Source of the DNA: Ettlia oleoabundans
Taxonomy: Eukaryota > Chlorophyta > Chlorophyceae > Chlamydomonadales
Length of the DNA: 17,530 bases
NCBI GenBank assembly: GCA_019693395.1
Contig: JAAMXP010005820.1
Coordinates: 1 to 17,530 of the forward strand
Direction: 5' to 3'
This document shows, one piece after another, positions 1 through 17,530 of the stretch; position 1 is the first letter of the stretch, and every line of letters starts with the position of its first letter. A program made the position numbers and the translations under genes. Below the pieces are notes generated by a model. The model searched no databases. It had not been told where the DNA came from and was given only the letters and a program-made list of their open reading frames with translations.

Positions 1-102
1 TTTTCTCGCTCATCGTTTTGTCTCCCAACCCTGGACGCAACCCCTTTCCTACCTTGATCATCAGTCACTGTTCTACCAACTGAACTCCTTCTCATCATTC
101 AG

Positions 103-1045
103 GAGCGAACCAAGTTTGAGAAGGAGACGCGGATCAACGTTGGGGGTCAAGCTCGACGCAGTAGCCTTGCTGAGAAGAAGTGAGTGGCTTGCATTGCCTG
201 TCTTTGGTTTAGCTGTGTCTGCTGGTGTTTGGCGCGAGTCCTATCAATTGCCCGCATCACTTCACCAAGCAACCAGCCTGCCTGCTTGATGCTTGCATCA
301 AGGCGTTCTTGGTTTGCTGACCGGAAGTTATCTTGTGTCAGCGTTGCTGTCTCAGCGGAGGGCTATACGGCTAATAACACATCCACCCTGTGCAATACCG
401 TTATGGGTGCTCCTCTTGCTGCCACCCTCCAACAGGCCTTACAGCTCCGGCCAGAAGGAGCTGATTGTGGTGACGCTGCTGGTGGCGGCAGACGGCTCCT
501 TCAAGCTGCCCCAGGTTGACTCACAAGGCAGCATGAAGCAGGCGCTGTCCATGCTGGGGGCCATCAGGTGGGTGGGTGAAAACTTGCTGGTGCGCTTACG
601 AAAGACTCCGTGTGCGTCCGAGTATGTTATTACGTGAATAATCTATATATGCACTGGAGCACCTCCCACGCTTGGTGCGGATCGTTTTCAGATTGCATAA
701 GCTCTCGCTGGTGCTCTCTGCTTTGCCACTGATTGTGTGTATCGTGGTCCTTGCCTCTGCAGGGCAGACGACCTGCTTGCTGTGGAGGTGCTGTGGACGC
801 CCGAGGAGGAGGTGCGGGCTGCCTGCTTCCTGCTGTGCCTGTTGCTGTGGTTGACGTTCAGTAATCGCCCTCACTCTGCTGAATCTCCCAATGCTCCTCC
901 CCATGCCATCGTCGCAAACTCTGCAGGCACCTGGGTTCGTCACCTAAGTACTTGCTTGTGCCTGTTCTGCCATCTACTCCTGCAGGATGATTACTTCACT
1001 GTGGAGGACCTGGCAGTGGATTACCCCACCCTCAACACTCTCTAA
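103..1045 (+). CDS. DUF1517-family protein, C-terminal part (5' truncated by window edge)
   Basis: Four exons fit in phase: 103-179, 436-567, 763-811 and 986-1045 (stop TAA), giving the last 105 residues. Bases 1-102 look like the end of an intron (AG at 101-102). The first visible residues, ERTKFEKETRINVGG, are followed by GQKELIVVTLLVAADG, then LLAVEVLWTPEEE and the end VDYPTLNTL. This order (IVVTLLVAA, then hxVEVLWTP, then a terminal DYP) is the signature of the DUF1517 family of cyanobacteria and chloroplasts. Arabidopsis FLAP1, a thylakoid/envelope protein linked to acclimation to fluctuating light, belongs to it. A chloroplast location is inferred from the family, because the N-terminus that would carry a transit peptide is not in the window. 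Donors are GTGAGT, GTGGGT and GTGCGG. The function of this copy is not shown by the sequence. Confidence 0.85.
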
Positions 1046-1488
1046 GACCCTCTCCTGAGCCACCGATCGCCACGCTTTGCCAGCCTGAAGGTATTGCAGC
1101 CTTCCCCACCTCATAGATTGCCTGCCACAATGCCCGTGCTAGCCAGCGTGAGCTTAGCCAGGCCCTTTCAGTCGTGCTCCCATCAGTAGTATTCTGTCCA
1201 TGCCCTCTGCTCAACGCCTTGCATGCACCTCCTTTCACATCCTAAATTTCATTGCTGAACCTACCCCTTGTCCCACTTCTGCCTGAGTGGTTGATGATCT
1301 GGCAGCATCCAGCCAAGCAGACTGCGGTTCCTGCTTTGTTGTGTATCAGCCTTTAATACTGCTTATCATGCATACCCCTCCTGAGCCCTTCTGCCCTGTA
1401 CTGCTACTCATTTACTTACCAACAGTTCTGAGTTCAACCTTGCATGAGAGTTTGTGCGCCAGTAAGCCATTCTGATGATGTGAGGGGT

Positions 1489-1493
1489 TTACA
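1489..1493 (-). terminator. Candidate poly(A) signal TGTAA for the G-patch gene
   Basis: TTACA on the + strand reads TGTAA on the - strand, about 250 bases past the TAG/TGA end of the G-patch gene at 1744. Only three bases separate it from the opposite-strand signal. Confidence 0.5.
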
Positions 1494-1496
1494 GTC

Positions 1497-1501
1497 TGTA
1501 A
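1497..1501 (+). terminator. Candidate poly(A) signal TGTAA for the DUF1517 gene
   Basis: TGTAA on the + strand, about 450 bases after the TAA stop. TGTAA is the usual chlorophyte polyadenylation signal. It is the first + strand copy I found after the stop. Confidence 0.5.
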
Positions 1502-1743
1502 TACAGTTGATCAGATGATACTGGAAACGAAAGCGAGCAGTTATAACGATAACGATGAAATTGCGGACTGGGAACAGCGTAAACGGCATATAAGGAAGGC
1601 ACCACAAACTTGGCAAGCAGCAAGTGAACAGCAGACGGGTTTTGGGCAAGCACAGAACTCTGCAACAGTTGCTCAGCACCTTGGGCCTCAACTACTACTA
1701 GAAGTATTTATTAATATGCACACTGCTTTCCCCACAGCCAGGC

Positions 1744-4269
1744 TCAACCACGCAGGCGGACCAGTTTTCCTTCCACCACAAACTTGCTGCTGGCCTGCAA
1801 CCGGCTGCTAAATGCCGCTTTCACTGCTGCCTTGCTGCTGACAATACCGCCATGCTTGGCTAGCACGTCCGCCACTACCCGCCGCTGCAGCTCTTTGAGT
1901 CTCAGCTGCCGCTTCTCTTCCGCCTCCAGCTGCTGCACGATCATCTTCTTCCACTTCACAGCTTCTTGCCAGCTGGCAGTGCCTTCAGCAGGCCCAGCAG
2001 GCCGCCCCCTCAAATCCTTCCCTTCTGCTGCCGCCTCTCCCGCAGCTTTGCTCCGCTTCTTGCCGCCGCCGTCACCTGTGCCGCCATCACAGCTGGCAAG
2101 TGCAACAAGCTCCGTGCAGCTGCCTTTTGCGGCTAGACTGGAGGCTGGCTTTCCGCGCTGCTGTCCCGCTCCCTCCTCTTCTGCTTCACTGCCGCCACCA
2201 GTGCCGGCCTCCTCCTGCTCCTGTTCCTCGAAGCTCACCCGCTTGCCCTCCCACTTCACGCCACCAAACTTGACTGTGCCTGTACCCTGGCCAAGCCCCA
2301 CCTTGCCCTGGGTCTTCCTGGCCTGAGCGGTGTTGAAGATGCGGGCCTGCATCGCGAGGTACAGCGCAGCACGGCAGGGTTGCACCAACATGGCTACAGC
2401 ACGGCATCATACAGGCACACAGCGGCAGCTCAATCAAGTATGCATACAGCCGACCACAGTGACGACAGCCCAGCAAGCCAGTCAGCCAGCCAGTCAGCCA
2501 GGAAGACACACCACGCCGATACCACAACATGCAATCAAATCCTATCCCCAAACCTCACAGGAGTCCACCACAGGCCCAACATGCACGCAATCTATAAGTA
2601 AGAGGTCACCCAGTCTTCCCACCCACCTGGTCATCCTCATCAAATGTCATGCGCCGCCGCTGCGCCTCCGCCGCCGCCTTGTCAAGCCCCTCCAGGCACC
2701 CCGCAGATGCAAAGCGCTTCTCTCCCCACCAGCCTGCAGAACCAGGCATGAAGGGCAGCATGTGGCAACTGGGCATGGAGCCAAATGGAGCCAGCGCCAG
2801 CACCAGCAAAACCAGCACCAAACAGCAAGAGGAGAACTGCCCACCCAGGCAGCACGACACGTGCACATGCACACTTCAGCAGCCGGTGGGGCACACCTGT
2901 GGCGGGGGTGGGCACAAAGGCGTACGAGGGCCCAGCTTGAGTCAGTACCGGCTCAATAACTATCCGCTGCTTCTTGGCTGGTGGCTGCTGCTGCTGCTCT
3001 TCTTCGGCTGCCGCCGCCTTTGCCTTCATCGCCTTCTTGCCCTCTCTGCTGCTGCCAGCGCTTGGCTGCCCATCCGTCGCTGCTGCCGCCTTTGCCTTGC
3101 GCTTCTTGCCGCTGCCGCTCAGCTTGACCTCACTGGTCGTGTCTGACTGGTCGCTGCCGCCTCCTGCAGCGGCACGTGCAGCCATTGGCGCCGCTTGTGC
3201 GTCGGTACCGTGCCCTGTACTGGCTGAAGTCCCGGCTGCACTGGGCACCCCCAGCTTGGCAGCCGCCTGTGCGGCCAGTGTAGCCTCCTGCTGCCGGATG
3301 CGTGCCATCTTTGCGTCCCGCCCGCCAAACCGCCCCGCCGCCACGCGACCACCCTTGGAGAGAGAGGCCAGCAGCTTCAGCTCCTCGGCAGAGGCACTAG
3401 TTCGGGTGCCGTCGCGGTTTACAGCCGCCGCAATGGCTGCCATCTGCTCGTCATCTGCATATTGTGGAGCAGGTGAAACATTCAAGGCAAGGTGAGGAGC
3501 ATCGGTGATGGCAGGGGCGAGGGTTGCAAGCAGATACAGCAGGCAGGTGACTTAGCAAACCCTCAACTTGCATGTCATGCACATGTGCATGCTGCAGTCT
3601 GGCAGTGGTACAATAGTTTGAACATGGACGGGTGCGTGCAGAGTGCAGGTTACGCTCCCTGTGCAAATAGAGCGGCACAGCACAGCGAACGGCACAGCAC
3701 AGCACGGCACAGCACAGCGAACGGCACAGCGTTTTGACACACACCTGAGTCAGAGTCAGACGAGTCACTACTGCTGCTGCTGTCCCCAACAGTCTGCAGC
3801 GCTGAGTCGAAAGCCTTCTCCCACCACTTATCTCCCCATGCATAGCTGCCATTGCCGCCCACCTGTTAAAACCGGGCCGGAGTGGCAGGGAGGGAGGGAG
3901 GGAGGGTGAGGGAACGCAGGCAACAGCAGGTTATAGTGGTGCAGGGATCTTGGGGCTGCAAATAATTGTCGAATGACTTATCCATCACGTCATTGATTCA
4001 GCAGACAACCCGCAAGAGGCAGCACCACACGACCGAAGTGACTTAGCTGCCACCAGTGGCAGCCCTGGCGGAGGCAGCGGCGGCAGGCGCACCCCCACTG
4101 TGTCCTCCTTCTTTTTCACTTGGATGGCCTCCTTGATGCCGGTGCCCTCCTTGCCCAGCCCGTGCCCTGCCTGCCAGCCCATTGAGCGCAGCATGCGCTC
4201 CCCAAACCCGCCGGTGCATTTGGGCTTTGACACTCCTTGGCCAGCAACATGGCCTGGAGGCAGCTTCAT
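1744..4269 (-). CDS. GPATCH4: G-patch domain protein, GPATCH4-like (nucleolar RNA-helicase cofactor family)
   Basis: Five exons join without a phase break: 4269-4093, 3862-3745, 3454-2897, 2733-2627 and 2346-1744, for 520 aa. An in-frame TAA lies just upstream of the ATG. Residues about 21-62 form a G-patch (GFGERMLRSMGWQAGHGLGKE, then IKEAIQVKKKEDTVGVG), followed by WGDKWWEKAF as in GPATCH4. Next come a Ser/Asp-rich tract, then GGRVAAGRFGGRDAKMARI, which matches the GPATCH4 'RTAHKAARLG..KAKLARL' block. A Lys/Ala-rich linker leads to WWGEKRF and FDEDDQ, then QGKVGLGQGTG. The last ~70 residues (KWKKMIVQQL to FVVEGKLVRLRG) look like the winged-helix-like C-terminal domain seen in plant members and in LYAR-type nucleolar proteins. 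Human GPATCH4 is nucleolar and stimulates the helicase DHX15; the same role here is inferred. The gene is divergent from the next one, sharing about 320 bases of upstream DNA. Confidence 0.88.
2476..2502. repeat. Short CAGCC/CAGTC tandem repeat in an intron
   Basis: Alternating AGCC and AGTC units (AGCCAGTCAGCC then AGCCAGTCAGCC) lie in the last intron (2347-2626) of the G-patch gene. It is simple intronic repeat with no coding role. Confidence 0.7.
3671..3731. repeat. Tandem GGCACAGCACAGC/GAACGGCACAGC repeat in an intron
   Basis: About 60 bases are built from units of GGCACAGCACA and GCGAACGGCACAGC, repeated about three times. They lie in the G-patch gene intron 3455-3744, starting about 13 bases past its donor on the - strand. 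The units are imperfect, contiguous and lack spacers, so this is a minisatellite and not a CRISPR array. Confidence 0.8.
3888..3906 (+). repeat. (GGGA)n run, five G-triplets
   Basis: Five GGG triplets separated by single A bases on the + strand. On the transcribed (-) strand this is a C/T-rich run 24-43 bases upstream of the acceptor AG at 3864-3863 of the first G-patch gene intron, so it may serve as part of the polypyrimidine region. The + strand could form a G-quadruplex. Confidence 0.7.
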
Positions 4270-4587
4270 CTCTTATGTGTGCGGCCGCTGCCCTGCCTGC
4301 CAAAAATGCTGAACCTGTGGGGCAATGGGCAGGCTGCAGGGGCTCGCGAGGTGCAGGATGAGTTGGGAGTGGTTGTAATGAGGTGCATGCAGCACTTCGG
4401 CCATCTGGAGGCGGCAGCCGCCATTTTTGTCCAGGCTGGCAGGGCGCAATGCGCGCAGAACCGTTGAGGAAACCACACAGCAGCTCTTCTACAAGGCCGA
4501 ATCATTCACCATTGTCTTGTCCGCCTGCTAATACCTCACGTCTTATCCCAAGCCACAGGGGCTGAACCCCTGCGCCACAAGCTTACC
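4270..4587. promoter_or_regulatory. Divergent promoter region between the G-patch and CBP3-like genes
   Basis: The 318 bases separate two start codons on opposite strands (4269 - and 4588 +). Both genes' core promoters and 5' UTRs must lie here or inside upstream non-coding exons. I see no clear TATA box, and the short open frames look like noise. It is called from position only. Confidence 0.5.
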
Positions 4588-6798
4588 ATGCTTCGTACTC
4601 TTTCCAAGCAAATTGCGTCGTTAAGCCTTTTAGAACAGCGTCTCGGTGGCACAGTGCTGCCTCCTCAGCCGTCTGCATCGCTGCAGGGTTGGCAACCAGC
4701 AGCAGTTCTCCAGCAGACCGCCTGGCACTCTACAGATGCATTCAAGGTGATCAGCCGTCGTGCTGATGGCGAGCGATGCCGGGCTGAGCTGGCACCGGCT
4801 GCGCTTGACCACCGTCGCCAAAGCTCTTGTGACAGCTAACCCTTCTGGCAAGCAGTACCCCTACAACCATCCCACCAGTTCATCCCACTCGCCCTGCTAT
4901 GCACACCTGCAGAAGCTTATCCATAATGCGGCACCCCGCTCTTTAGAATTTCAGCGCCAGTCGCCGGAGGAGCTTGAGGCGGAAGCGCGGCGCGGCTTTG
5001 CCATCAAGGCGCTGCTGACCCTGGGTGGTTTCTACTCCAGGGAAAGCCGCCACATGCGGGCGGCACAGCACCTGTACGCAGCAGTGACGGAGCAGGCGGT
5101 GTCACCCGCCTTTCTGCAGGGTGAGTGCGATGGCCGCAACGACACTCCCAAAGCTAGCCGGTGTCCTCGCGCTAACCCTCGGGGTTGAGCCTACAATCAC
5201 ATGAGCTGCTGGTACCTTCCTCAGCTGTGCTGCTGCCGTTGCTTGGCTTTTGCCAACAGGCACTCTGCAGTGCATTATCCTGCCATTTCTCCATGATCAA
5301 GGTGGTCGTTTCTGTGATGCGCGGTAGAACCCTCCTGATGCCAATCTCCTTGTTCTGTATGTATATCTTTCTGTGCAGCCATGGGCATTCCAGAGGAGTT
5401 CCAGCAGATGCACTCCTCCCTCTGCCTCCACATCTGGCTGGTGCTGGTGCGGCTGCGATCAGAGGGCAAGGACGGCAGGCACCTAGCTCAGGTAAGTGTG
5501 GCAGTAGCGACATCTACCCACAGCAGCTGTTCCTGATGGTGCAGGCCAGCCCACCATTAGTATCCGGTTAGGGAGGGGTGCTGAAGCAGACAACCGAGCA
5601 TGGCTGAATGCCATACCATGCAGGCAGCCCGGCGCAAGTTGCTGGAAGGGCAGCGATTTCGTTGTGTTTTGCATCTGCTCCCCCTGTAATTCCGCTGCCT
5701 GTATTGTGCCGTCTGTGCTGCGCTTAATATGTTGCGTCTCTTGTGCCATCCTTGCAGATGCTGTATGACGATTTTCAGATAGACGTAGAGGACAGGGCAC
5801 GCAAGGCGGGAGTGAGGGTAAGTGCGGAACATTGTGTCCACACAACTGAGGTTGCTGGCATGAGTTGTCATAAACCAGGAGGACTGCTCACGTCACCTGC
5901 GATGCCGTTCTTGCAGAGTCTGTCAACATTAAATCAACACCTTGCAGCTTTGTATGCATCATTGAGACATGCTTTTCTCCATGCCCCACCTGCAGGTGCG
6001 GCTGCAGAAGCAGCTGACCGAGCTTGAGAAGCAGTTTTACGGCAGCAGCATGGCGTATGACCGTGCAATGGCGGGGGAGGAGGCGCTGGACAAGGTGGGT
6101 CGGTGGAGGACGAGGAGAAGCTGACTGCATCAATCCATGTATCACGGGCCAGGGCCTTCGAGATGGGTGGGCACATTTTGGGAATGTGTTAGAAAGGGTT
6201 AATCCTACAAGAATATTGGTTGCAAATTCATAGCAACCTTAAGCACCTTTCGCCAAACTTCAACGTTTTGCAAGAGCTCTTTGCCATGGTTCAACCCGCA
6301 CAATGACGTGCAGCAAATGTCAATTGGGTATTTCATGCCAAAGCTGCTGGTACGACTGCCGCTGCTGCTATATTCTTCAGTCAGCAAAAAAACCAACTGC
6401 CCTTGTATACTGCACTGTAGGCATTGCTGCGCAATGTGTACCTCTCGGAAGGAGACAGGACAGCTGATGCTGCACTGCTGGCTCGCTATGTTCGCAGGTT
6501 AGCCAACCCTGGTCAGCTGGTTGCGCTGCTCAGGCTGCCTGTGGATGTGCCAGCTGCACCATGTTTCCCGACCTTGCTCTGCTATCAGCCACCTGGCACC
6601 CTTGTTTTGTGGTGCAGGGAGCTAGCCTGCCTGACAATGACGCCAAGCGCAGCAATTATGGCAGGCAATGTGAAATTCTCGTCGGAAGGCTTGGAGGCAG
6701 GCCCAGCGGCCAGCAGCAGCAGCAGTAGCAGTACGACTGGCACTGACCACGCAAGCACAGCGGGAAAGGAGGCGCCCACAGCAGGGTCAGCTGCTTGA
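4588..6798 (+). CDS. CBP3: CBP3/UQCC1-type ubiquinol-cytochrome c reductase (complex III) assembly factor
   Basis: Seven exons agree in phase: 4588-4746, 4913-5120, 5379-5491, 5758-5817, 5996-6094, 6421-6497 and 6618-6798, for 298 aa. Residues 1-53 (MLRTLSKQIASLSLLEQRL, with many Arg/Ser/Leu and few acids) look like a mitochondrial targeting peptide. The core, about 78-255, carries family features of the ubiquinol-cytochrome c chaperone domain (PF03981): GFYSRESRHMRAAQHLY, GIPEEFQQMHSSLCLHIWLV, LRSEGKDGR, MLYDDFQIDVE, LEKQFYGSSMAYDRAM and ALLRNVYLSEGD, then LLARYVRREL. The family works with a partner of the CBP6/UQCC2 type at the mitoribosome exit in synthesis and assembly of cytochrome b; that role is inferred from homology. 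The C-terminal ~45 residues are Ser/Ala-rich low complexity (a run of Ser near 246-252) outside the domain. Length is normal for the family. Confidence 0.88.
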
Positions 6799-7368
6799 AT
6801 GGTGGCTGGTGGCCGCTCTGCAAATTTCAGTGGGTGGACGCCCCAGGACATTTCATTTTGGCAGTTGCAATCACCATTCCATGCAATTCAATCACATCTG
6901 CTAGCAGTGGGACATCCATTGTCAATCATTTAGTCACCTCATTAGCCTGTACAACATCGTTAAGAGTACCTTGCTTGGTTTCTCGCCAGTATAAACACCC
7001 CATGTGTTGCATTCAGGTGCATAAGGGGTTGTTCAAGTGCTTAAGTCTGCCACCGGCATTGGGAATTACCAATAAGCCTCACCCCTGTAAGGGTTCTTGT
7101 AGTGCAACGTTGCCATGATTATGTCACTGTGCACGGTTGCTACACGTCTAGCATAGTTCCCTTCATGCCCGCCACGGGAGGGCGCTGCTGTGTTGGCACC
7201 CGGTCAGCAGCCGTCATCAGGTGCTGATCCCGGCTGCCGTCGATCGTTGCTTTTTGAGTTAGCTCCTGTGCTTTACAAGGCCAGCGTCTGTCACACGCAT
7301 TTTTGAAACCCGGCGAGTCCAAAGTCTGCTGGCCCCTCTGCCTGGCGTCTGCGCGCGATCGCCTCGAT
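6799..7368 (+). other. 3' UTR of the CBP3-like gene and promoter/5' UTR of the H4-like gene
   Basis: The first ~300 bases, to about 7105, are probably CBP3-like 3' UTR. The remaining ~265 bases should hold the start of transcription of the H4-like gene and become GC/CpG-rich close to the ATG. No extra exon is evident. A TATAAA at 6990-6995 lies inside the presumed 3' UTR and is not called as a promoter. Confidence 0.5.
7086..7090 (+). terminator. Candidate poly(A) signal TGTAA for the CBP3-like gene
   Basis: TGTAA lies 288 bases past the TGA stop on the + strand, a typical distance for chlorophyte 3' UTRs. Confidence 0.6.
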
Positions 7369-9154
7369 ATGACGCGCAAGACGCCGGGGCGGACGCCAAG
7401 CCGCAGCTGCAATGCGGGCAGCAAGCGGAACTCAGTGGGGACTCGCCTGCAGCCTGCACCAGCGGTGATCAGCAAAGCTTGTTATAGGAAGATTGCACGG
7501 CGCGCGGGTAGGGAGTCTGAAGACGGCTGGGGCGCGGCTGTGCTTGCCTGTCTGCAGCTGCGGCCTGGCGGCTGATGTGGGCTTGCTGCCGCTGCATCCC
7601 ACCTGCTTGGTCAAGAACAATATCAAACGACCTGTGCTGCCTGTCCTGGCTTGCTGTGCTGCAGGCGTGAAGCGCATATGTCCGAAAATCTACGACGAAG
7701 GGCGGGCGGCCCTGAAATACTTCCTCAAGCGCACCGTGCCGAAGGCCATAGTCATAGCCGGGCATGCCAACCGCTTCACAATCACCCCCAACGACATAGC
7801 CATGGCGCTCAAGCAGGAGGGCATGTGAGTATATACGCGTTTCACAGCTTTATTCCCATGGCTCACTGGGCTTGCGCCCGAGCAGCATGGGCACATAGGG
7901 ATGCCCTGCTCAGTGGGGCGTGGAATGAAGCGCTGGCAAATCCAGCAGCACACCTCAATGTGCTTCTTCCCTCCATCTGACCTATATGCTATGCTTCTAA
8001 CGCTGCCTAGCTGCTCTGCTATTCCTCATATGCACAGCACGCTCTACATGAGGGGAGCCGACTGGAACAACAGATTCTTCTCCCGGCATGACGTTCGCAA
8101 GCGTGTCATGCGGCCCCTGCCCCAGCGGTTGCTGGTTGAGGCAGCTGAAGCCCGAGCCGCCGAGAGCCAGCTGGAGTCAGCACCCAGCAGCGCACAGAGG
8201 GCCATGCAAGCGCCATCAGCCGCCCAGTCACCAGCTTCTGTTGGCTGCGAGGGGGAGCGGGAGCAAGAGGATGAAGAGGTCCCCACCGCTGGCTCCCAGG
8301 TTGCTCCAGCAGAGCAGCAAGCGGCTGGTGACGGCGGTGCTGCCCCAATGGAGGTTGAAGAACAGGCAGCAGCAGCTGGGACAACAGCGGAAGAGGAGGA
8401 GGAGCAGCAGGAGCAGCAGCTGCCGTCTCCAGCTGCTCAGCAGCCTGCGCTGGCTGGTGCTGTGGGGGACAAGGCTGGGCCTTCAGGCCAGCAGCCCACT
8501 CCGGCTGCCGCTGCCACTCCGGAGCAGCAGCAGCCTGAGGTGCACACTCCTGCGCCCATGACAGCGGAGCGAGCAGCGGAGGTGAGCTGTTGCACCTGGT
8601 TGAATTGCGGAAATGGCTGCGGGAAGTACTATCCGTGCCCTGCATGGGTGCTGTCCTTGATTGCAGTTTCGCACGGTTGGCAAGCAACATATGAAGCTTG
8701 TACATGACAAAACATGGCGGTTCCTGTTGCCTGTCCATAATGCTGTGCTCCCTTGCAGGTTCAGGCGTGGATGTCAAAGGTTTTTGCCGACACAATGAGC
8801 TCAACAGGCTACACCAGTACACAGAAGATCAAGACGGTGAGCGCCATCAAGGTGCAGGTGCCATTGTTCACCTTCCCAATGGAACCTGTGCTCACAAGAG
8901 TTGACACATGCATCTTTCTTGGACGGTTGCTTGCAAACAGTGCAGCTGCTTCCTCTCCCATCCACTGTTTCCTTCGTATCACTGTCCTAGCATGCTGACT
9001 TCCTGGTGCTCGACTGCTGCCCAATGGGGAATGTGTTCAGGTGATGCTGGCAAGGTACACATGCAGCGCTGAGGAGGTCCAGGACATGCTGTTTGCCCTG
9101 GAGCGGAACGGGAGCATCATGTTCGACAATGAAGATGTCTTCCTGACCAATTGA
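7369..9154 (+). CDS. Divergent histone H4-like protein with long C-terminal extension and winged-helix-like end
   Basis: Five exons keep one frame: 7369-7507, 7665-7824, 8038-8581, 8759-8836 and 9041-9154, for 344 aa. Residues 42-106 align gap-free with H4 37-101: IARRAGVKRI (H4 LARRGGVKRI), IYDEGRAALKYFL (IYEETRGVLKVFL), AGHANRFTITPNDIAMALK (TEHAKRKTVTAMDVVYALK) and TLY. About 31 of 67 positions are identical by hand count. H4 residues R35, R39, R40, K44, R45, R55, H75, R78, D85, K91 and Y98 are kept, while K79 is Phe. The tail (1-34) is basic (MTRKTPGRTPSRS) but lacks the GKGGK-type acetylation sites and the KRHRK patch. Residues ~140-281 are Ala/Gln/Glu/Pro-rich. Residues 282-344 are compact and end in AEEVQDMLFALERNG...MFDNEDVFLTN, like a winged helix. 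A nuclear chromatin role is inferred. It is not canonical H4, and I know no described family with this layout. Confidence 0.85.
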
Positions 9155-9459
9155 ACTGGGCACCAGTGGGGAAAGCTGCTCCTTGGAGAGGGAGCAGCTG
9201 TGGAAGGCGGGTCAACATTCATGCTGTTTTCCCACAAGCAGCGACATAGCGGCGCGGCCCCGGCCCCAGGCGCTAAGGCATCAGGCCGTCACGAACTGCT
9301 GAGCATAAACATTGACGCCTCCCAGAGATTGCACATGCACTGCGCATAACATCAGGCGAACTGTTGCATAAACGATCTCCTGTGACAAGCGACCCTGACC
9401 TTCTTGACGATTACAAACTGCAATTTATACGGCTGAGCGATAAATTAGGAGCAATCACA

Positions 9460-9472
9460 TTAGGGTTTAGGG
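9460..9472 (+). repeat. Interstitial telomere-like motif TTAGGGTTTAGGG
   Basis: Almost two units of TTTAGGG, the plant-type telomere repeat also used by many green algae. The same sequence on the other strand reads CCCTAAACCCTAA, a telo-box as found in plant promoters. Two units are too few for a true telomere tract. Confidence 0.6.
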
Positions 9473-9633
9473 TGTTGTCAAGATAGGCACTAGTGTGAGC
9501 GGACTCACTCTTGGGCTCATGCCCAATTTGCATTGCCGGCACGGCATCTTTGTGATCACGGCTTGACAGTTTATCACTTGTTTCCTGAGAAACTCACAGA
9601 GCTGCTAACTACATGCGAATACTCACAGCTAAG

Positions 9634-9638
9634 TTACA
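9634..9638 (-). terminator. Candidate poly(A) signal TGTAA for the prolyl 4-hydroxylase gene
   Basis: TTACA on the + strand reads TGTAA on the - strand, about 720 bases past the predicted stop. That is long but possible, and a further copy lies at 9411-9415. Weak, called on motif only. Confidence 0.3.
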
Positions 9639-10357
9639 GCAATTGATTGTCTATCAAGCAACAAGCGAGGTGATGACCTGCCAATGTCCCGAGTGGAAAA
9701 ATGCAACAATCTGGAAAACAACAAACTCTCAGCCTCTCAAGAATAGCAGTTAGGGTTCATTGTCATGTCAACAGGTGGGTCAACAGTGGGAGCAGAACGG
9801 CCGGCAGACCGTTGTCCAGCAGGCACCAGCAGGCAGCTCTGAATGCTGTAGTCCGGCCCCGCCCACCCGACTGGGCGTCATGCCGTGGCTGCTGATGCTG
9901 TGCAGAACAATTGTAACTCAGAAAAAACCAGGGTCATTTATGGGCAAGAAGCCTGCCTTGATCCTGTTCTCTCGCCGGCAAGCCTCGTCGCCTTGTTGGC
10001 ATACCTGTAGGGGGCAATGGAGGCAATGCAATCATTTCAGTGACAGGAGCAGGAACAGTGGGGTGGCAGCAGGGACGCCTGCAAAACAGCAGGTCAGCGC
10101 TGCCACTGCAGCCCAGAACCATGCGGCACACATTTCCATGCAAATAGACGAGTTGAAAACCAGTCATCAGCTTGTCCCAGTTCAGGCCCAGCTTCGTCGG
10201 GACGAGGCATGACATGGTGGAAGGGCAGGGCAAAAATGGACTGGGCAAGGCAACCTCAGCCAGGATAGGGCAACTCCAAGCCAAGCCTGGCCCAGAGCTT
10301 GGCAAGGCAACCAGCCATATCAAACCAAGCAGCCAGCCGGCCGAGGCAAGCCCACCC

Positions 10358-13068
10358 TCAGACTTCACTCACCACGCAGTCCCCACACGATGCCCTGCAA
10401 GTGCCCAGCGTGTGTGCCGCCCCCCGCATGAACCCCGGATTCCGGTCGCACTCGCCAGTTGCCGCCCAGCCGGGGCACCCAGGCTCCAAATCAACGCAGT
10501 CCTCTGGCACCGTGGCAGGCTGGGGCGGCAGCGGGCCTGACAGCAGCTCTGGGCGGAAGGGCTGGGTGTGGATCCAAAAAATGGCTGCAAGGAACGGGAG
10601 TGGGAGAGTAACAATAACATGTGGCTGCTGGGTTCAGGAGGACGTGTGTGCCATAGGCTGCAGGGGGCAGGCAGTAATCTGGGATTGGGTGGGGGAAAGG
10701 ATGCATGAACGGCAGGAGAACGCGAGATGAAGGAGTGAAGTGCGTTTGGCCTGCCAAAGCAGCTGGTGCCTGATCTGCCCATGATATACTGCCATTCTGT
10801 GTGTTGGCCAGCAAAAGCAGAAGCTGCGAACTCAACAGTAACAAGCACAGACAAGCGAGAATGTAACCAGGCGGTGTCAAGAAAGGTCGACAAGGAAGCT
10901 TACCCACATACTTCACCCCGCCGATGACGGGGCAAGCAGCGTGCACGGCATGTTGGTCATGAGAGCGCCCATCAGGGTGCACAGAGTGGAAAAGGAGCGC
11001 GTCACCACGCTTGGGTTTTACAGAAACGCGGCCCTGCAGATCAAAGCACGGCAGTGGCAACGCGTGCGGTGGCTTGGCAAAGGCATAGGGGTAGGACACA
11101 GGCGGCAAGCGAGGATGGCGCGTGACAGCGCATTGCCGTCCAGGCACATAAGGGCATGCTCAGTTCAGAAGGGCAAGTAGGAGCAGGGAAGGGTGCCATA
11201 AGGATTTCAGACGACCTGCTGCTGCCCAACAAGCGCTGCAGGGCTACAGCATTTGGGACGTATGCTCCATGCCCAGTCCCGTGACGTTGAGTGCATGCCA
11301 TGGCTGTTTTGCCTGGCAGCCAGGTAGCCAAAGCCATCCGGCCAGCCAGTGGCCTGCTGCCACTGCCGTCCTTGCCCGCCACCCAGCAACCCACCTGTGC
11401 GCAGGCTGAGAACGGGCCCTGTGTCTTGGCCAGCGAGGGATTAATCCATTCCGAGTTTGGAAAGGTGGTCTCGCCACCTGATTCCACGTCGTTGAGGTAC
11501 AGCAGTACAGTTGCGGTACGAGGCGCCTCGTCATCCAGGCTGTCAAAGTGCTCCTGCAGGTGGCATAGCCAATAACCACAGCAGCTCAATCACGGTCGTT
11601 GATTGATGGTCCGGTTGATTTAAGGCTAACCCACAGCATGTGAATCTGTTCTTTTTAATTCAAAAAGGTTCCCCAAACATCGCGTCTGCCAAACAATCTT
11701 CCCCAACAACGTGGGCCTGTGTGAAGCAATGCAGAGGTGGTTGGTTCCCTACCTTGTACTCCTGTGAGGCGCCGTACCGCAGCACCTGCAGCAGTCGAAG
11801 ACAATACAAGGGTGCGGATGTTTGCCTCGGTTTAGGATGGCAAACGGAACAAGAGGGGGAACCTTCACAGCAGCTATGGTTGCACTGTTTACAAACCCTT
11901 GAGAAGTTTAAAGCACGAATAGGTGCCGGTAATGGCAGCTTCCAACTGCAAGCTGCCAAGCGCGGGCCTGGTGAATCCCCTATCGGCCCAGCCTCACTGT
12001 CGGGTTGAACCCCACGGGCTGAGCCCCACCGCCTGGCTGGCTCACCTGCACATCCTCCTGATGGCTGACATTGTATTTTGTCCACAAGGCCACACGCTGC
12101 TGCAGCTGTGTCACAATCTCATCGTGGTGCCGCCTGTAAGTTAGGTGAGAGCGCAGGGAGAATAAGAAACGGCAGGCAAGCTGGAAGGGCGTAGCAACGG
12201 CCAGTGTCAGAGCGTGACTGCAGCACCGGCGCAAAAGAGGTTGGCGGATGATGCCGAATGCAGACAGCCAGCTTTTAAAGTAATAGAGACAGGACCAGTG
12301 AATTGGAAGTGCTGAGGCGGTTGGCAGCAAGACTGGGGGTTCACTGTGTAGGCGGTCAACTGCCACCCACCGAATGAACATGCCGTAAGAGGTGCGATAG
12401 CTATCAACCACGCTCTCGCCTTTAGCGCCCACCACCGTGCTGCGTCTTAGCTGCGGAATAGGGACGAGGTGTGGCGAATTACGGCAGGGTGTTGGGGCGG
12501 CGGCAAGGGAGGTATGCGTCTGCATGGCGGCATTAGTAGGGAGATCTGCAGGTCGTTGCACACACGCCCTGCTACAGGTGCCCTCTGCCACGCCCCCATC
12601 TAAACCCTTGGATTTTTAGTCCCCTTTTATGAGTGGGAACCCAACGACTAGTGCTTCCGAACCGGGGGCTCTGCTGGAAGCGGTAGGCGGCAAGAGAGAC
12701 GTATCACATCGCATTAACCAGCTGCATGGAGGGGTGGTACCAACCTGCGGCTGTGCCAGCTTGATGATGTGATCGGTCTCCTCTTTGCTGGCAAAGTTAT
12801 GCGCAAGGAAGGCGCGTGGGTACCAGGACACAGGCTCAAACCAAGGGTATGTTTCTGCCGCGTCTAGGCCGCCTGCAAAGCAGCGGTGGCAGCGGTGCCG
12901 CCAGCACGGGGCGGCAGTGTGGTGACGGAGGCGGGCGGCACGCAGATCATATATACCCAGCAAGTATCTGCAAACCTTGAACAGTCCATGCGAGAGCTTA
13001 CCTGCGCGGCTGGCCGCCAGGGCCAAGAACCAAGATACCATGGCCCATCCTCTTCTCGGCATGTGCAT
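10358..13068 (-). CDS. P4H: Prolyl 4-hydroxylase (2-oxoglutarate/Fe(II) dioxygenase) with C-terminal ShKT domain
   Basis: Eight exons agree in phase: 13068-13002, 12872-12745, 12450-12371, 12133-12046, 11785-11753, 11553-11395, 11033-10904 and 10584-10358, for 303 aa. An in-frame TAG lies directly before the ATG. Residues ~1-22 ([19 protein letters not shown]) form a signal peptide or anchor. The P4H core has [32 protein letters not shown] and [15 protein letters not shown]. Iron ligands H134, D136 and H216 and the 2-oxoglutarate lysine K226 sit in EHFD and [12 protein letters not shown], with the His-to-Lys spacing of 10 seen in Chlamydomonas P4H-1. The C-terminus has six cysteines (258, 265, 274, 291, 295, 298) around [11 protein letters not shown] and CRASCGDC, a ShKT domain common in algal and plant P4Hs. 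It should hydroxylate prolines of cell-wall or secreted hydroxyproline-rich proteins in the ER/Golgi. The last five codons overlap a perfect GTGAGT donor, so the 3' end is uncertain. Confidence 0.9.
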
Positions 13069-13406
13069 CTACTTCACAACCGTATGTTTAGCCACTGCAA
13101 CGCACAGAATGCGGCCGCGAAAGAGGGGTTAGGTGCCTGTTTCCGTGGCCTTGACATGCGTAGCATGGCTCCCTTTTTACGTGTTTTCAATGCCGTCAGA
13201 TGCATTGGCGCATGCTGATTCGGTTTCAGCATTTTCTTGCCGACACCTGGCCGTGCCCTCCCATACTTGGCACACTCCCCATCTTTGTTGTTCATTTCAG
13301 CTCCTCCGAGACACACACAGGCGTACATTAGACGAACGTTATTTGCATCAAGCGGTGCGCAGTCCAGGCAGTCTTCACGGTTGCACGGCCAGTCCTTGCA
13401 GCCATA
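13069..13406. promoter_or_regulatory. Divergent promoter region between the prolyl 4-hydroxylase and membrane-protein genes
   Basis: The 338 bases lie between two start codons on opposite strands. Both 5' regions must be here. No TATA box or other named element is clear, and the call rests on gene arrangement. Confidence 0.45.
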
Positions 13407-14275
13407 ATGCCGGCCACCAAGCAAAAGTAAGTGCCTTGCGCTTGTTAACCCGCCTGAGTCAACCCAATAGGCACTGCAGGAAGCGATTGTGACCTGCCGC
13501 TGATTGCCGCTCTACAGCTGCGTGCTGTTTTGGCGCCTTACTCCTCAACCTACATCTAAATGCTGGCAACACGCGCTCGCCATGGCACTGCTGGCTGCAG
13601 GAAGACACGAAGGACACAGCACCTTGACTCAAGCAGCAGCTCTGGCAGCAATGCGCTGGGGCTAGTAGCAGTGTTGGCGGCAGCTGCAGTGGGGTGGTGG
13701 TGGTGGCGGCGGCGGCAGCCCGCTGGCGACAAGCCTGGCAGCCGCAGCAGCTTCAAGTTTCCTCCCGCCCAGCAGCAAAGCGGCAGCAGCGCGCCACGCA
13801 GCAAGGCTTCGAACAACAAGAAGAACAAGGCGCGGAGAAAAGAAGAAAAGGCTCGACGTGCTGAGAAGCGGGAGAAGTGAGTTGCAATGATGAGATTTCA
13901 TGCCATCTATGCCTCCTTCTGCTGTTACTGAGCTCTCAACTTCAGATTTACACCTTTACCCTGCCGAACATCTGCTTCCGGCACGCTACAAGCACTGTTG
14001 CGCCTCCGCATGTCCACTGGCGCCAATGCTTGCCCGCCGCCTTTCAAGGGTTCCCTCGGTTGTGCTGCAGGGCGCTGGATGGTCCCAAGCAGGCAGGCAA
14101 GGACGACGACCAGCCGCAGTCAACGGCCGTCATCAACTACACCTATTTCGATTCGGCTCGCAAGGACAGCCTGTTGCCGGCAGCTCAGAAGCGGCCCACT
14201 CTGAGCGCTGCAGACGCGGTTAAGATGCAGCAGGACGCGGCCTCTGGCAGCGGCAGCGGTGGCAGCAAGAAGTAG
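13407..14275 (+). CDS. Single-pass lysine-rich membrane protein of unknown function
   Basis: Three exons fit: 13407-13426 (only 20 bases), 13601-13876 and 14071-14275, for 166 aa. Donors are GTAAGT and GTGAGT, acceptors CTGCAG. The two joins each rebuild a Lys codon, so skipping introns would leave only short frames. The protein starts MPATKQKKTRRTQ and has one hydrophobic segment at about 25-42 (NALGLVAVLAAAAVGWWWW) followed at once by RRR. A Ser/Pro/Gln stretch and a strongly charged segment (NKKNKARRKEEKARRAEKREK, about 79-99, likely helical) come next. The C-terminal part has DDDQPQ and INYTYFDSARKDSLL and ends GSGSGGSKK. The positive residues on both sides of the segment leave its topology open. 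I do not recognise a family. It is divergent from the P4H gene. Confidence 0.65.
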
Positions 14276-14329
14276 CACTTCCAGCAAATTCCTAGCTAAG
14301 GCCTGCTGCAGCGTTCATATCTTGAGTGC

Positions 14330-14689
14330 TCAATGCGAGTGAGCAACCCTGCGCCTTTTCTTCCTGTCAGTTTTAATCATCTTTGTTTGTTTTGTCACCG
14401 ACACCTCCCCGGTGAACTGTTCTCCTTCACAAACTTTCTTGACTGCTCTTGATGACCCCATGGTGTGATCATTCAACTTTTGAGGATGCCATGCACTTTC
14501 TGTGACGTCTTGGTCATGTTGGATCAGCACTCCCGAGTTGATCAGTCGAGAAAGTTGTGCTGAGGCACGTGCACTGACCCGTGATGCTTTGACATTCTCA
14601 GTGATGGGGAGTGATGTGGGTTGGCAGAGCTCAGTGTTCATGTCAGTCTGTGCCTGATTTACACGTACACAAGCTTTGGTCTGCAGCAT
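14330..14689 (-). other. Uncertain 119-codon open frame, - strand
   Basis: An ATG-started open frame, ending in TGA, lies antisense to the presumed 3' UTR of the membrane-protein gene. It has a charged end (MIKTDRKKRRRVAHSH) and a segment KASRVSARASAQLSRLINSG that could form helices. Its codons often end in A or T, unlike the G/C-ending codons of the seven genes here. It may be chance, part of the HGD 3' UTR, or a remnant of a mobile element or foreign gene. I do not recognise it. Confidence 0.2.
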
Positions 14690-14796
14690 CTGGATTTACA
14701 ATTTGTTGGTGTGTTGGTTGATCAAACATAAAACGAACAGGCAGAGATGGTTGAAATGGATGTTGGACAAGATGAGAAACATTGAGGAAATAAAGT

Positions 14797-14801
14797 TTAC
14801 A
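14797..14801 (-). terminator. Candidate poly(A) signal TGTAA for the homogentisate dioxygenase gene
   Basis: TTACA on the + strand reads TGTAA on the - strand, about 320 bases past the TAG stop at 15120. It is the first - strand copy downstream of the gene. Confidence 0.5.
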
Positions 14802-15119
14802 TCAAGCGGCTTGCATCTACAGCACTTTGGTAAGAACCTCCAGCAGAGTCTTGCGTAAAGGGAGGCGTTACCTGCTGGTGATCCATTCAATCATGCAACA
14901 CAAGAGAAGAAAGTATCATGGTGCTATGGTACATGACATGCAGCGGATGGGGATCTATTGAACATACATGCAAGTACCCTGATCCGCCAAAGCAGGTACA
15001 CCGCAAACCAACAGATTGATGCTTAGATGCGAATGGCTGGCTGAGATCGCTGCCCTTTAAACCCAATATTTTGGTACAAAACAACCTAGGTCAACTACCA
15101 GAATGCCTGCATGAGCTGC

Positions 15120-17408
15120 CTAGCTGTGCCCGTTCTGCTGCTGCTGCTGCTGCGCGGGTGGTGGCTCTTCGCCGCCAACTGCCATATGCCCGCCACCTGG
15201 CTGGCCAGCTTTGCTGCTGGCATCAGGTGCAGGACCTTCCCCAGCCGCTGCCTGTGTTGGCCTCCAACTAGGATTAAAGTGGCTCTTCAGGCCCACCCAG
15301 CACTGATAGTAGTTGCGGTCTGCATGCCCGGGTGGATGCACCACAACAAAACTATCAGGGGGAGCCCAACTTCTGAGACAAAGGCAGGACAAAATTGCCA
15401 TGCGCAACCGCAGTCAGCCATCGACAGCAGCTCCAGCCTGCCAGCCAGCACTAGTGACTCAAAAGGGGAAGGCAGAAACCAGCTTGCCCCGGCAACACTC
15501 GCACCAATGTTTGGCGCGCCCACAGCATGGGCGGTCAGGCGCGGGGTGTAATATGTCTCAAACATGAAGGCAAGAGTGTCCCTGCGTTGCAAATAGCAAG
15601 GTTGAAGTAGTCCGTTGGTGTTCCCATCGGGAACACAATCAAGCCGCTAAAAGTGCGAGATGTGAGGTATCATGCCACTACTGCAGCCGGGCAACAATCG
15701 TGCTTCGGCATGACAGCACTACAGCTATATAAACACAGCAGCTCGTTGTTTGTATGCCGCCTTGCAAGCACAAAGCAGAGCGGCTGTCGTGGGCATGCAG
15801 CAGCTGCAGTCTGCACACTTGAGGGTACAACTGGCCCAGTACCGCCTGCCCACGAGGGATCGACGGGGCAGAGTTGACAAGGTAGGGTTAATACAATGTT
15901 GGCGTTGACGACAAGGGCTGGTGGGGGTGCTGTTCTCACTTGGGGAGGTGGCCGATCTGCTCAGCTTCAGGGGCGGTGGCTCCCTCAAAAGTCCTGGTGT
16001 CAGGCCCGTGCGGCGTCATGCACGAGTGCAAGCTCGCGCCCCCTGCAGCCAGATGGGGAAATAGCTTAAGGGTGCAATGAAGCTCTGCAAAACAAAGGCT
16101 GTGTGGAATACGTTGGACAACACCTTGTAAGATGCACGCTAGCATAGCAGGTGTGCTTCATGTAGGCACGTGAACTAGGCAGCGTGGTGCTGGCAATGGG
16201 GCAAGTTGGGGAACATGTGCATGCATGCGGGTGGGTGTGGGTCGGTGTGTGTGTAAAGAGCTTGGGGTTGGGGTTGGCTGGGTCGATTGGTGTAAGGAAA
16301 GCATGATGTTCTGACCTGGCAGGAAGCCGTCAGCTTTTGCGTCGTACACTCCACGTATGAGGCCCATGAACTCCGACATCACGTTCCTGCACGTACCAAT
16401 GACTGTGCCAGTCACTAAAGCAGGGTAGGTTGTCTGTAAGTGGATGGTTTATTCTGCAAGAGAACCCCCATTCCTGGGAAGTTTATGGTGTCCGTAATGG
16501 CGTTTATGTTGTTGCAGTTGGCTTATAAGCCAGCCAATACTCCAGCGAAGCGAAGAAGAAGAGGGGCAGTACATATGAGCAGGCCCCCATCCAGCCTGAA
16601 ATTCCTGCTGCCCTTCTGTCCAGCCAGCTGCAGCACCCACCTGTGGTAGTAGGGTGGCCGGAAGGTGTGCTGCGCCACAGTCCAGCGTGGCGGGAAAATG
16701 ACAAAGTCAGCCACAGCGGTGCCTACAATGGTCAAGCAAGGGTATTGAGGTGTGCCATTGTTGCTGTATGACGAGAGCATGATTGATTAATGGCATGGGG
16801 GGCAATCGTTACTACAGCTCCTTTGTGCTGCACAGCGAGAGCCAGCATGCCGGCAGCAGAAGCAAAGTTTGACTCCATCCCTGCTGACGTGCGTGCCTCA
16901 GGGGCTGCATACCCCGTCAAACCATGAACCCATCAGGCAGCGTACCGGGAACAGGCGAGGGCGCAGTGAGCACTGTGAAGATGGAGGGGTCAGGGTGGTC
17001 GAAGCTCACCGCGTTCACTGCAGACGAAGGGCAGACGGAGGCGATCTATGAAGTGATGGAGATAGCAGCTGCGGTTCAGCAGGAACGTTAGTCTTCTTCA
17101 CCATCTGTTGGAGCTGAAGACATGCAAGCTGGCATAAACCTACATCTGCCCACCTAAACCTAACTCTTTGCCCAACACCAACCGCCCAGCGGTCGATGTG
17201 AACTGCCTAACCCAACTGCCTAAACGAGGGCCTAATCCAAGGCATTGACTGCCACAAAACCAACATCTAAAGCCCGTGTCATGCATTCGGCACACAACAG
17301 CTGCACCAAGACAAAACTTGCCTGGACAGAACTTTGCAAGGTCGTACTTGTAAGGTGCGTAGTTGCCGTGCCAGGCCACCACATTGAACGGCGAGAAGGA
17401 CTGGGCGG
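15120..17408 (-). CDS. HGD: Homogentisate 1,2-dioxygenase, C-terminal half (5' part outside the window)
   Basis: Seven exons join in phase: 17408-17322, 17017-16946, 16722-16641, 16386-16316, 16042-15940, 15581-15505 and 15319-15120, for about 230 residues. The enzyme opens the ring of homogentisate to maleylacetoacetate in tyrosine and phenylalanine breakdown. Diagnostic blocks appear in order: [100 protein letters not shown] and [12 protein letters not shown]. The iron ligands matching human H335, E341 and H371 (YYHRN, MSEFM, TPHGPD) and the catalytic H292 (AWHGN) are all kept. The first visible intron has a GC donor (CCAG|GCAAGT at 17322/17321). About 47 residues after KSHFNPSW are an Ala/Gly/Pro tail ending in a Gln run, absent from human HGD. 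The mature N-terminal half lies beyond base 17530. Confidence 0.93.
15135..15153. repeat. CTG/CAG microsatellite coding a Gln run
   Basis: Six CTG units on the + strand encode six glutamines near the end of the homogentisate dioxygenase reading frame on the - strand. It is a simple coding microsatellite. Confidence 0.85.
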
Positions 17409-17530
17409 CTGCAAGGAGCAAACGTGCACGGCATTGGAGATCAGAAAGTGGTTGCAAAATCCATGGTGTGCATTTTGCGCCAGCGAGGTTGGAGGCATTA
17501 CAAGACAAACAGCCCCCCCCAACCCCCCAC
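17409..17530 (-). other. Intron at the right edge, upstream of the first visible HGD exon
   Basis: The sequence upstream (on the - strand) of the acceptor AG at 17410-17409 has no stretch matching the residues expected before [12 protein letters not shown] in HGD. It also holds two C runs near 17513-17528. It is read as intron, with the preceding exon outside the window. Confidence 0.6.

Follow-up and report, generated by a model that had tools for sequence, protein, structure and literature searches.

The analysed window, a stretch of 17,530 nucleotides from the green alga Ettlia oleoabundans (positions 1-17530, contig C1197 of the 32.9-Mb assembly), contains a gene predicted to encode a protein of 344 amino acids, in which a histone fold related to histone H4 is joined to a C-terminal winged helix of the MCM3 type. 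A divergent H4-like gene with several exons had been proposed at this locus from the DNA letters (the original prediction) and was confirmed here, with five exons, GT-AG junctions and a 344-residue product (Table 1). The four introns proposed were also recovered, with lengths of 157, 213, 177 and 204 nt and phases 1, 2, 0 and 0, and the spliced coding sequence amounts to 1035 nt including the stop codon. All four splice junctions are bridged by homologous proteins, namely at ARRAGV, G[IS]TLY, the ER..E[VI] stretch and L[KR].V (junction 4). An alternative donor at 8851 would add five residues which are present in no homologue, and the shorter form was therefore preferred. Most of the length of the product is made up of the extension behind the fold, an acidic linker and the winged helix. 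As far as searched, the predicted gene is single copy in its own genome.

Table 1. Exons of the H4-like gene and other genes of the window, in window positions
Feature	Positions	Strand	Basis or remark
Whole gene, ATG to stop, predicted 344-residue H4-like/winged-helix protein	7369..9154	+	Five exons; spliced translation; homologues P0001-P0005 along the length
Exon 1: basic tail; the histone fold begins at about 7468	7369..7507	+	Tail corresponds to GSGRAG.KR in the homologues
Exon 2: core of the H4-like histone fold	7665..7824	+	47% identity to own canonical H4; self-match E 2.0e-31; family profile
Exon 3: last residues of the fold (TLY, 8039-8047), then a conserved basic extension (about 8048-8158), a poorly conserved acidic linker and, from about 8558, the beginning of the winged helix	8038..8581	+	
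Exon 4: first part of the winged helix	8759..8836	+	Alternative donor 8851 judged unlikely
Exon 5: last part of the winged helix, predicted wing, stop codon	9041..9154	+	
DUF1517-like gene	1-1046	+	By eye
G-patch-like gene	about 1700-4300	-	By eye
Ubiquinol-cytochrome c chaperone gene, directly upstream of the H4-like gene	4588-6498	+	tblastn pieces; gene region taken as 4588-6798
Prolyl 4-hydroxylase-like gene	10340-12900	-	By eye
Homogentisate dioxygenase-like gene	15100-17500	-	By eye

Relatives of the predicted protein were found in three Chlorella species and in metagenomes. A search with the full-length protein gave one match, C. vulgaris D9Q98_006441 (P0001, 394 amino acids; E 9.5e-49), which is identical to the query in 72 of the 142 columns of the N-terminal alignment. 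A profile of these two sequences with the linkers masked then retrieved eight proteins: P0001, C. variabilis CHLNCDRAFT_57043 (P0002, 568 amino acids), a C. sorokiniana protein (P0003, 346 amino acids) and five metagenomic proteins (P0004-P0008). P0001 and P0003 are already named Histone H4 in UniRef. The matches suggest that the source alga is related to Chlorella. The tail, the fold and the C-terminal domain are present in a single protein in P0001, P0003, P0004 and P0005, and in P0002 they are located behind a ubiquinol-cytochrome c chaperone domain which forms its N-terminus. With the chaperone gene lying directly upstream of the H4-like gene on the same strand of the window, P0002 is best read as two adjacent genes (chaperone and H4-like) that were apparently merged in annotation, and the order of the two genes would be conserved between C. 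variabilis and E. oleoabundans. Between these algae the identity is 47% for the fold and 57-91% for the single pieces of the neighbouring chaperone. The alignments left out P0006, which has the histone fold domain of P0005 with another C-terminal frame, and P0007 and P0008, which are second halves only. The window protein, P0001, P0002 and P0003 are referred to as the Chlorellaceae-type set (n = 4), and the six-member family adds two metagenomic members. A region search gave no match and missed even the C. vulgaris homologue, so that little can be concluded from the silence of the protein search for other green algae and plants. Two scans of viral contigs, which were pattern-based and of limited reach, confirmed no viral relatives.

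The proposed gap-free alignment of residues 36-106 with H4 31-101 was borne out, and the identity of about 46% counted by hand agreed with the multiple alignment, in which the fold is 47% identical to the H4 of the same genome and 45% identical to human H4. When the first 143 residues were searched against the own genome, seven canonical H4 loci were found (E 1.0e-14 to 3.5e-14), with 47% identity at six of them and 43% at the seventh, and the only matches besides these loci and the gene itself were two with E of 0.11 and 0.25. The Pfam labels Histone, TAF, CENP-T_C and CENP-S were discarded for assigning the fold, as canonical H4 itself best matches CENP-T_C; Pfam TAF gave 12.4 bits on the window protein, under its cut-off of 21. 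Because these labels fail to separate H4 from related folds, a panel of sequences was used instead. The six-member profile, built without H4, scored 87.4 bits with the own H4 and 85.2 bits with human H4, compared with 20.3 bits for archaeal HMfB, 15.4 for TAF6, 13.9 for CENP-T and 9.8 for CENP-S. The H4 paralogue of the original prediction, against which a better match to a non-H4 histone-fold family would have spoken, was thus upheld, with H4 leading the next family of the panel by 67 bits. Each of the six members singly also preferred the own H4, by at least 34 bits, and in a search of the PDB with the query alone the best 60 of 96 matches were all H4. A further PDB search, in which the alignment included canonical H4, was biased to H4 and was not counted as evidence.

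The tree with other histone folds that had been proposed gave no such resolution. Neither of the trees contained a starred branch (0 in each), and they do not support the metagenomic and Chlorellaceae-type members as a single clade. In one of them the long TAF6 branch was grouped with the Chlorellaceae-type sequences (92/93), which was taken as a long-branch effect because the profile score of TAF6 is only 15 bits. From the profile and search results the predicted histone fold is identified as H4-derived, and its resemblance to H4 is judged not to be due to chance.

The N-terminal tail has 8 basic and 0 acidic residues among 36. Its motif, which reads SCNAG in the window and GSGRAG in most homologues and continues with basic residues, aligns with GLGKGGAKR of H4, which suggests, within the uncertainty of tail alignments, that the tail is likewise derived from H4. 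In H4 numbering, R39, R40, G42, V43, R45, L62, R78, T82, D85, L90, K91, G94 and T96-L97-Y98 are kept in all six members. Changes from H4 common to all six are found at positions 41 (A), 79 (F or M), 84 (N), 88 (L, M or F, with loss of Tyr88) and 95 (I or S). The four Chlorellaceae-type sequences also lack Tyr72, which the two metagenomic members retain. From the nucleosome structure, we take R45 and R78 to lie in DNA-facing loops and Tyr72 and Tyr88 to face H2B. The fold diverges fast, with 43-54% identity among the four Chlorellaceae-type members. At the start of helix 2, P0001, P0002 and P0003 have 3-7 additional residues, for which real and mis-spliced insertions look the same at the protein level. 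The common residues A41 and N84 and the layout only suggest that the metagenomic and Chlorellaceae-type members form one clade.

In the AlphaFold model of the C. vulgaris homologue, the C-terminus is folded as a winged helix (helix-helix-helix-strand-strand) with a predicted local distance difference test score (pLDDT) of 76-93. When the isolated C-termini were submitted to Pfam, WH_MCM3_C was the only family listed, below its cut-off (E 0.077 for the window protein and 0.056 for C. vulgaris). For direct comparison, the own MCM3, presumably the gene on contig C949 as judged by MCM3 motifs, was located and its winged helix read from two exons. A profile of the four Chlorellaceae-type C-termini scored 24.7 bits against this winged helix, and none of 500 shuffles reached as much (best 7.6); against human MCM3 it scored 8.4 bits, again above all of 500 shuffles (best 7.3). 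The single C-termini of C. vulgaris, the window protein and C. variabilis scored 19.3, 15.8 and 9.0 bits against the own MCM3 (each 0/500 shuffles as high), and that of C. sorokiniana scored 4.3 bits, a value reached by 3 of 500 shuffles. As controls, the own MCM7 exons (-2.5 bits), the own MCM5 and MCM4 exons (-0.8 and 2.1 bits; single exons and hence partial) and a human CUL1 winged helix (0.9 bits) were compared with the same four-member profile. hhalign gave a probability of 90.8% for 64 columns at 27% identity. A ranking of open frames from five MCM loci by the Chlorellaceae-type profile placed the last MCM3 exon first, with 9.5 bits. Among the 50 matches listed by VIA-align, 13 were MCM entries, including the top match, and MCM, cullin and Rpa2 winged helices were among the best aligned chains. 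Foldseek gave 0 matches at E <= 0.001; its first 30 were chains of nucleosomes or histone complexes, and winged-helix matches appeared from E 0.2 on. The model of P0004 is of low confidence and did not enter the structure search.

Not all searches with the C-terminal domain pointed to MCM3. WH_MCM3_C was not listed by Pfam for full-length P0001, P0002 and P0003. The two metagenomic C-termini scored 0.5 and -0.1 bits against the own MCM3, so that kinship to MCM3 was not found for them and their likeness to the Chlorellaceae-type proteins at the C-terminus is one of layout only. With a six-member C-terminus profile, calmodulins were listed first in the PDB, with no convincing single stretch. An EF-hand was nevertheless rejected for this domain, given the weakness of single stretches, the two-stranded wing of the model and the stronger match to the own MCM3. 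A WH_MCM3_C search of the own genome gave no match, which is uninformative because the controls were silent too and the winged helix of the own MCM3 is split by an intron. A profile from human and plant-like MCM3 likewise missed the own MCM3 exons, which were found by reading the frames.

For the Chlorellaceae-type profile, these comparisons identify the predicted C-terminal domain as related to MCM3. Since the own MCM3 retains its winged helix, that of the H4-like protein is an additional copy and not a transfer. Its third helix region is acidic and hydrophobic, not basic (SAEEVQDMLFALER), and for this reason a role in protein docking is favoured over DNA reading. As judged from sequence, the protein is an H4-MCM3 domain chimera, with an H4-derived fold and a putative MCM3-type winged helix in E. 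oleoabundans and the three Chlorella species. Of the special-purpose H4 paralogue originally predicted, the H4 kinship thus stood, while the description as a histone variant proved too narrow, the winged helix having gone unreported.

The H4-like gene also differs from the other H4 genes of the genome in its type. Seven canonical H4 genes encoding an identical protein are located on seven other contigs. Four of them have an H3 gene within 500 bases, and the remaining three are no more than 500 bases away from a contig end, where neighbours cannot be judged. The histone 3' stem-loop (Rfam RF00032) was found downstream of H4 at 7/7 canonical loci, with weak matches (E 0.002-0.9, all under the gathering score); altogether there were 11 matches at the canonical histone genes L001-L007, those in L002, L003, L005 and L007 also lying beside H3. 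In the window RF00032 gave no match at E up to 1. The features of a replication-dependent histone gene, a 3' stem-loop and the lack of introns, are thus not seen in the H4-like gene, and it is probably regulated like a replacement histone or an ordinary gene. The original prediction had noted no histone neighbour, and none was detected on the contig at E 0.001 in a Pfam Histone search, which also misses the H4-like gene itself. The other genes of the window (Table 1) form, by eye, an ordinary nuclear neighbourhood.

Other diverged histone-fold genes were noticed in the same genome. Contig C301 carries an intron-bearing, diverged H2B-like gene (L048, about 1225-2133; IEESYKRYVHRVLQQVHPEL, then VMQSFMSDAFDRLALEASRL, then a piece like the end of H2B). 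A diverged, intron-bearing H3 on C269 (L034, about 1112-1647; helix 1 region IPRAPFWRLAREV, end KDMQLARRLRGEHS) is a candidate CENH3, and part of a second diverged H3 lies on C880 (L043, 1441-1581; SLHAKRVTLMVKDMQLARRLRGERA). A further histone-fold gene on C41 (L008, 1501-1701) is by eye of the small POLE4/NF-YC type.

Compared with canonical H4, both the seven own loci and human, the protein shares 45-47% identity in the fold, R39, R40, R45, R78, TLY and a related tail motif. However, canonical H4 is near-invariant, has 103 amino acids and ends soon after TLYGFG, whereas the present protein has the family-specific residues A41, F/M79, N84, L/M/F88 and I/S95, continues past the fold into an extension, a linker and a winged helix, and is encoded by an intron-bearing gene with no stem-loop match. 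It has been reported that the two H4 variants H4V of Trypanosoma brucei and human H4G have 80% and 85% identity, and that the ascomycete H4E interacts with H3 and has an intron layout of its own (PMC10878826). H4.V has also been reported in rice (PMC7617672) and T. cruzi (PMC13052989). These variants, like the present protein, are H4 paralogues, and the H4E genes share with it an own intron layout (PMC10878826), but the 80% and 85% identity of H4V and H4G stands against about 47% here, and the available portions of these papers mention no fused domain for them. The last ~70 residues resemble the C-terminal winged helix of MCM3 in sequence profile and predicted fold, whereas no MCM AAA+ ATPase domain is listed for the 344-residue protein by Pfam at E up to 10. 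CENP-T and the present protein are both long and have a low-complexity stretch, and in both the histone fold continues into a helical extension. However, the fold is at the C-terminus in CENP-T and near the N-terminus here, the profile scores are 13.9 bits against 87 for H4, and a winged helix is added; TAF6, with 15.4 bits against 87, is likewise unlike it. Among the matches listed in our literature search, judged by title and start of abstract, no paper on an H4-MCM3 protein was found, and a paper on algal H2A variants (PMC12459048) mentions neither histone H4, an H4 variant nor Chlorella.

The original prediction had considered a distinct chromatin state or cell stage. Because of the MCM3-type winged helix, the reading moves towards replication licensing. 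In published work, the winged helix of Mcm3 makes contact with Cdc6 and Orc2 (PMC5538431). The first recognition of the complex of Cdc6 with the origin recognition complex (ORC) by MCM-Cdt1 is reported to occur via the winged helices of Mcm3 and Mcm7, with a stimulating effect of the Mcm3 contact on ATP hydrolysis (PMC11748629). We propose, at a probability of roughly 45%, that the protein pairs with histone H3 on DNA and offers its winged helix to the ORC-Cdc6 licensing machinery. As much of the H4 core is kept, the H4-like fold would pair with H3 or the CENH3-like H3, and since Arg45 and Arg78 are kept it may still touch DNA. Its packing on H2A-H2B would be different, given the loss of Tyr88 and, in the four Chlorellaceae-type sequences, of Tyr72. 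The winged helix would dock on Cdc6/Orc2 as that of MCM3 does, and the H4 fold would then carry an ORC-Cdc6 docking surface to chromatin, linking chromatin and origin licensing. The outcome could go either way: licensing factors may be recruited to the marked chromatin, or the protein may act as a decoy and prevent the loading of MCM on it.

A rival reading takes the protein out of the nucleosome altogether. Relaxed conservation fits release from the octamer, and together with the loss of Tyr88, the variable H2B-facing positions and the additional extension and linker it is consistent with a histone-fold subunit that pairs with H3 or another partner in a transcription or repair complex, the winged helix being a docking module unrelated to licensing. 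Yeast UAF, which contains H3 and H4, may serve as a parallel. This rDNA factor is described as a multi-protein factor with histone folds (PMC9020658). However, the DNA-facing R45 and R78 are kept in 6/6 members and the winged helix is closer to MCM3 than to the other winged helices tested, and such a subunit is considered rather unlikely. A special nucleosome of a spore, gamete or stress stage, the view of the original prediction, in which the protein takes the place of H4 in some octamers and its winged helix serves to compact or mark the chromatin concerned, would agree with the H4 kinship, the single copy, the introns and the missing stem-loop match, all of which resemble replacement histones, and with the presence of an intron-bearing H2B variant in the genome. 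It is nevertheless improbable, as H2B contact positions are lost (Tyr88 in 6/6 and Tyr72 in 4/6 members) and 344 residues with a replication-factor domain are odd for a packaging histone.

Kinetochore proteins diverge fast, and the fast divergence of the fold, together with the intron-bearing CENH3-like H3 on C269, brings to mind a centromeric H4 which partners this H3 and whose winged helix recruits kinetochore or replication-timing factors. The low scores of CENP-T and CENP-S against 87 bits for H4, and the MCM3-type domain without any tie to kinetochores, make this role unlikely. The gene model itself is a prediction from sequence, and the homologous record P0002 is itself an over-joined model, so that unrelated exons might have been joined or a functionless, decaying copy described. 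Such an artefact or decay is highly improbable: homologues bridge all four junctions, and P0001, P0003, P0004 and P0005, as well as P0002 behind its chaperone part, unite the tail, the fold and the C-terminal domain. As these three parts are kept in three Chlorella species and the metagenomic P0004 and P0005, a silent pseudogene is unlikely.

If the proposed pairing with H3 and docking on ORC-Cdc6 is true, the protein would be the first known core-histone relative with a helicase-loading domain. Tentatively, such a chimeric histone may hard-wire chromatin to licensing, and mark or silence origins in Chlorella-type algae. Among histones, H4 is regarded as the most conserved, and here is a lineage in which a predicted H4-derived fold with ~47% identity is fused to a replicative-helicase domain; H4 can apparently escape its constraint while the core of the fold stays. 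The algae concerned can be grown, and some can be transformed. If the mechanism holds, this gene would offer a single-gene handle on the communication between nucleosomes and origin licensing.
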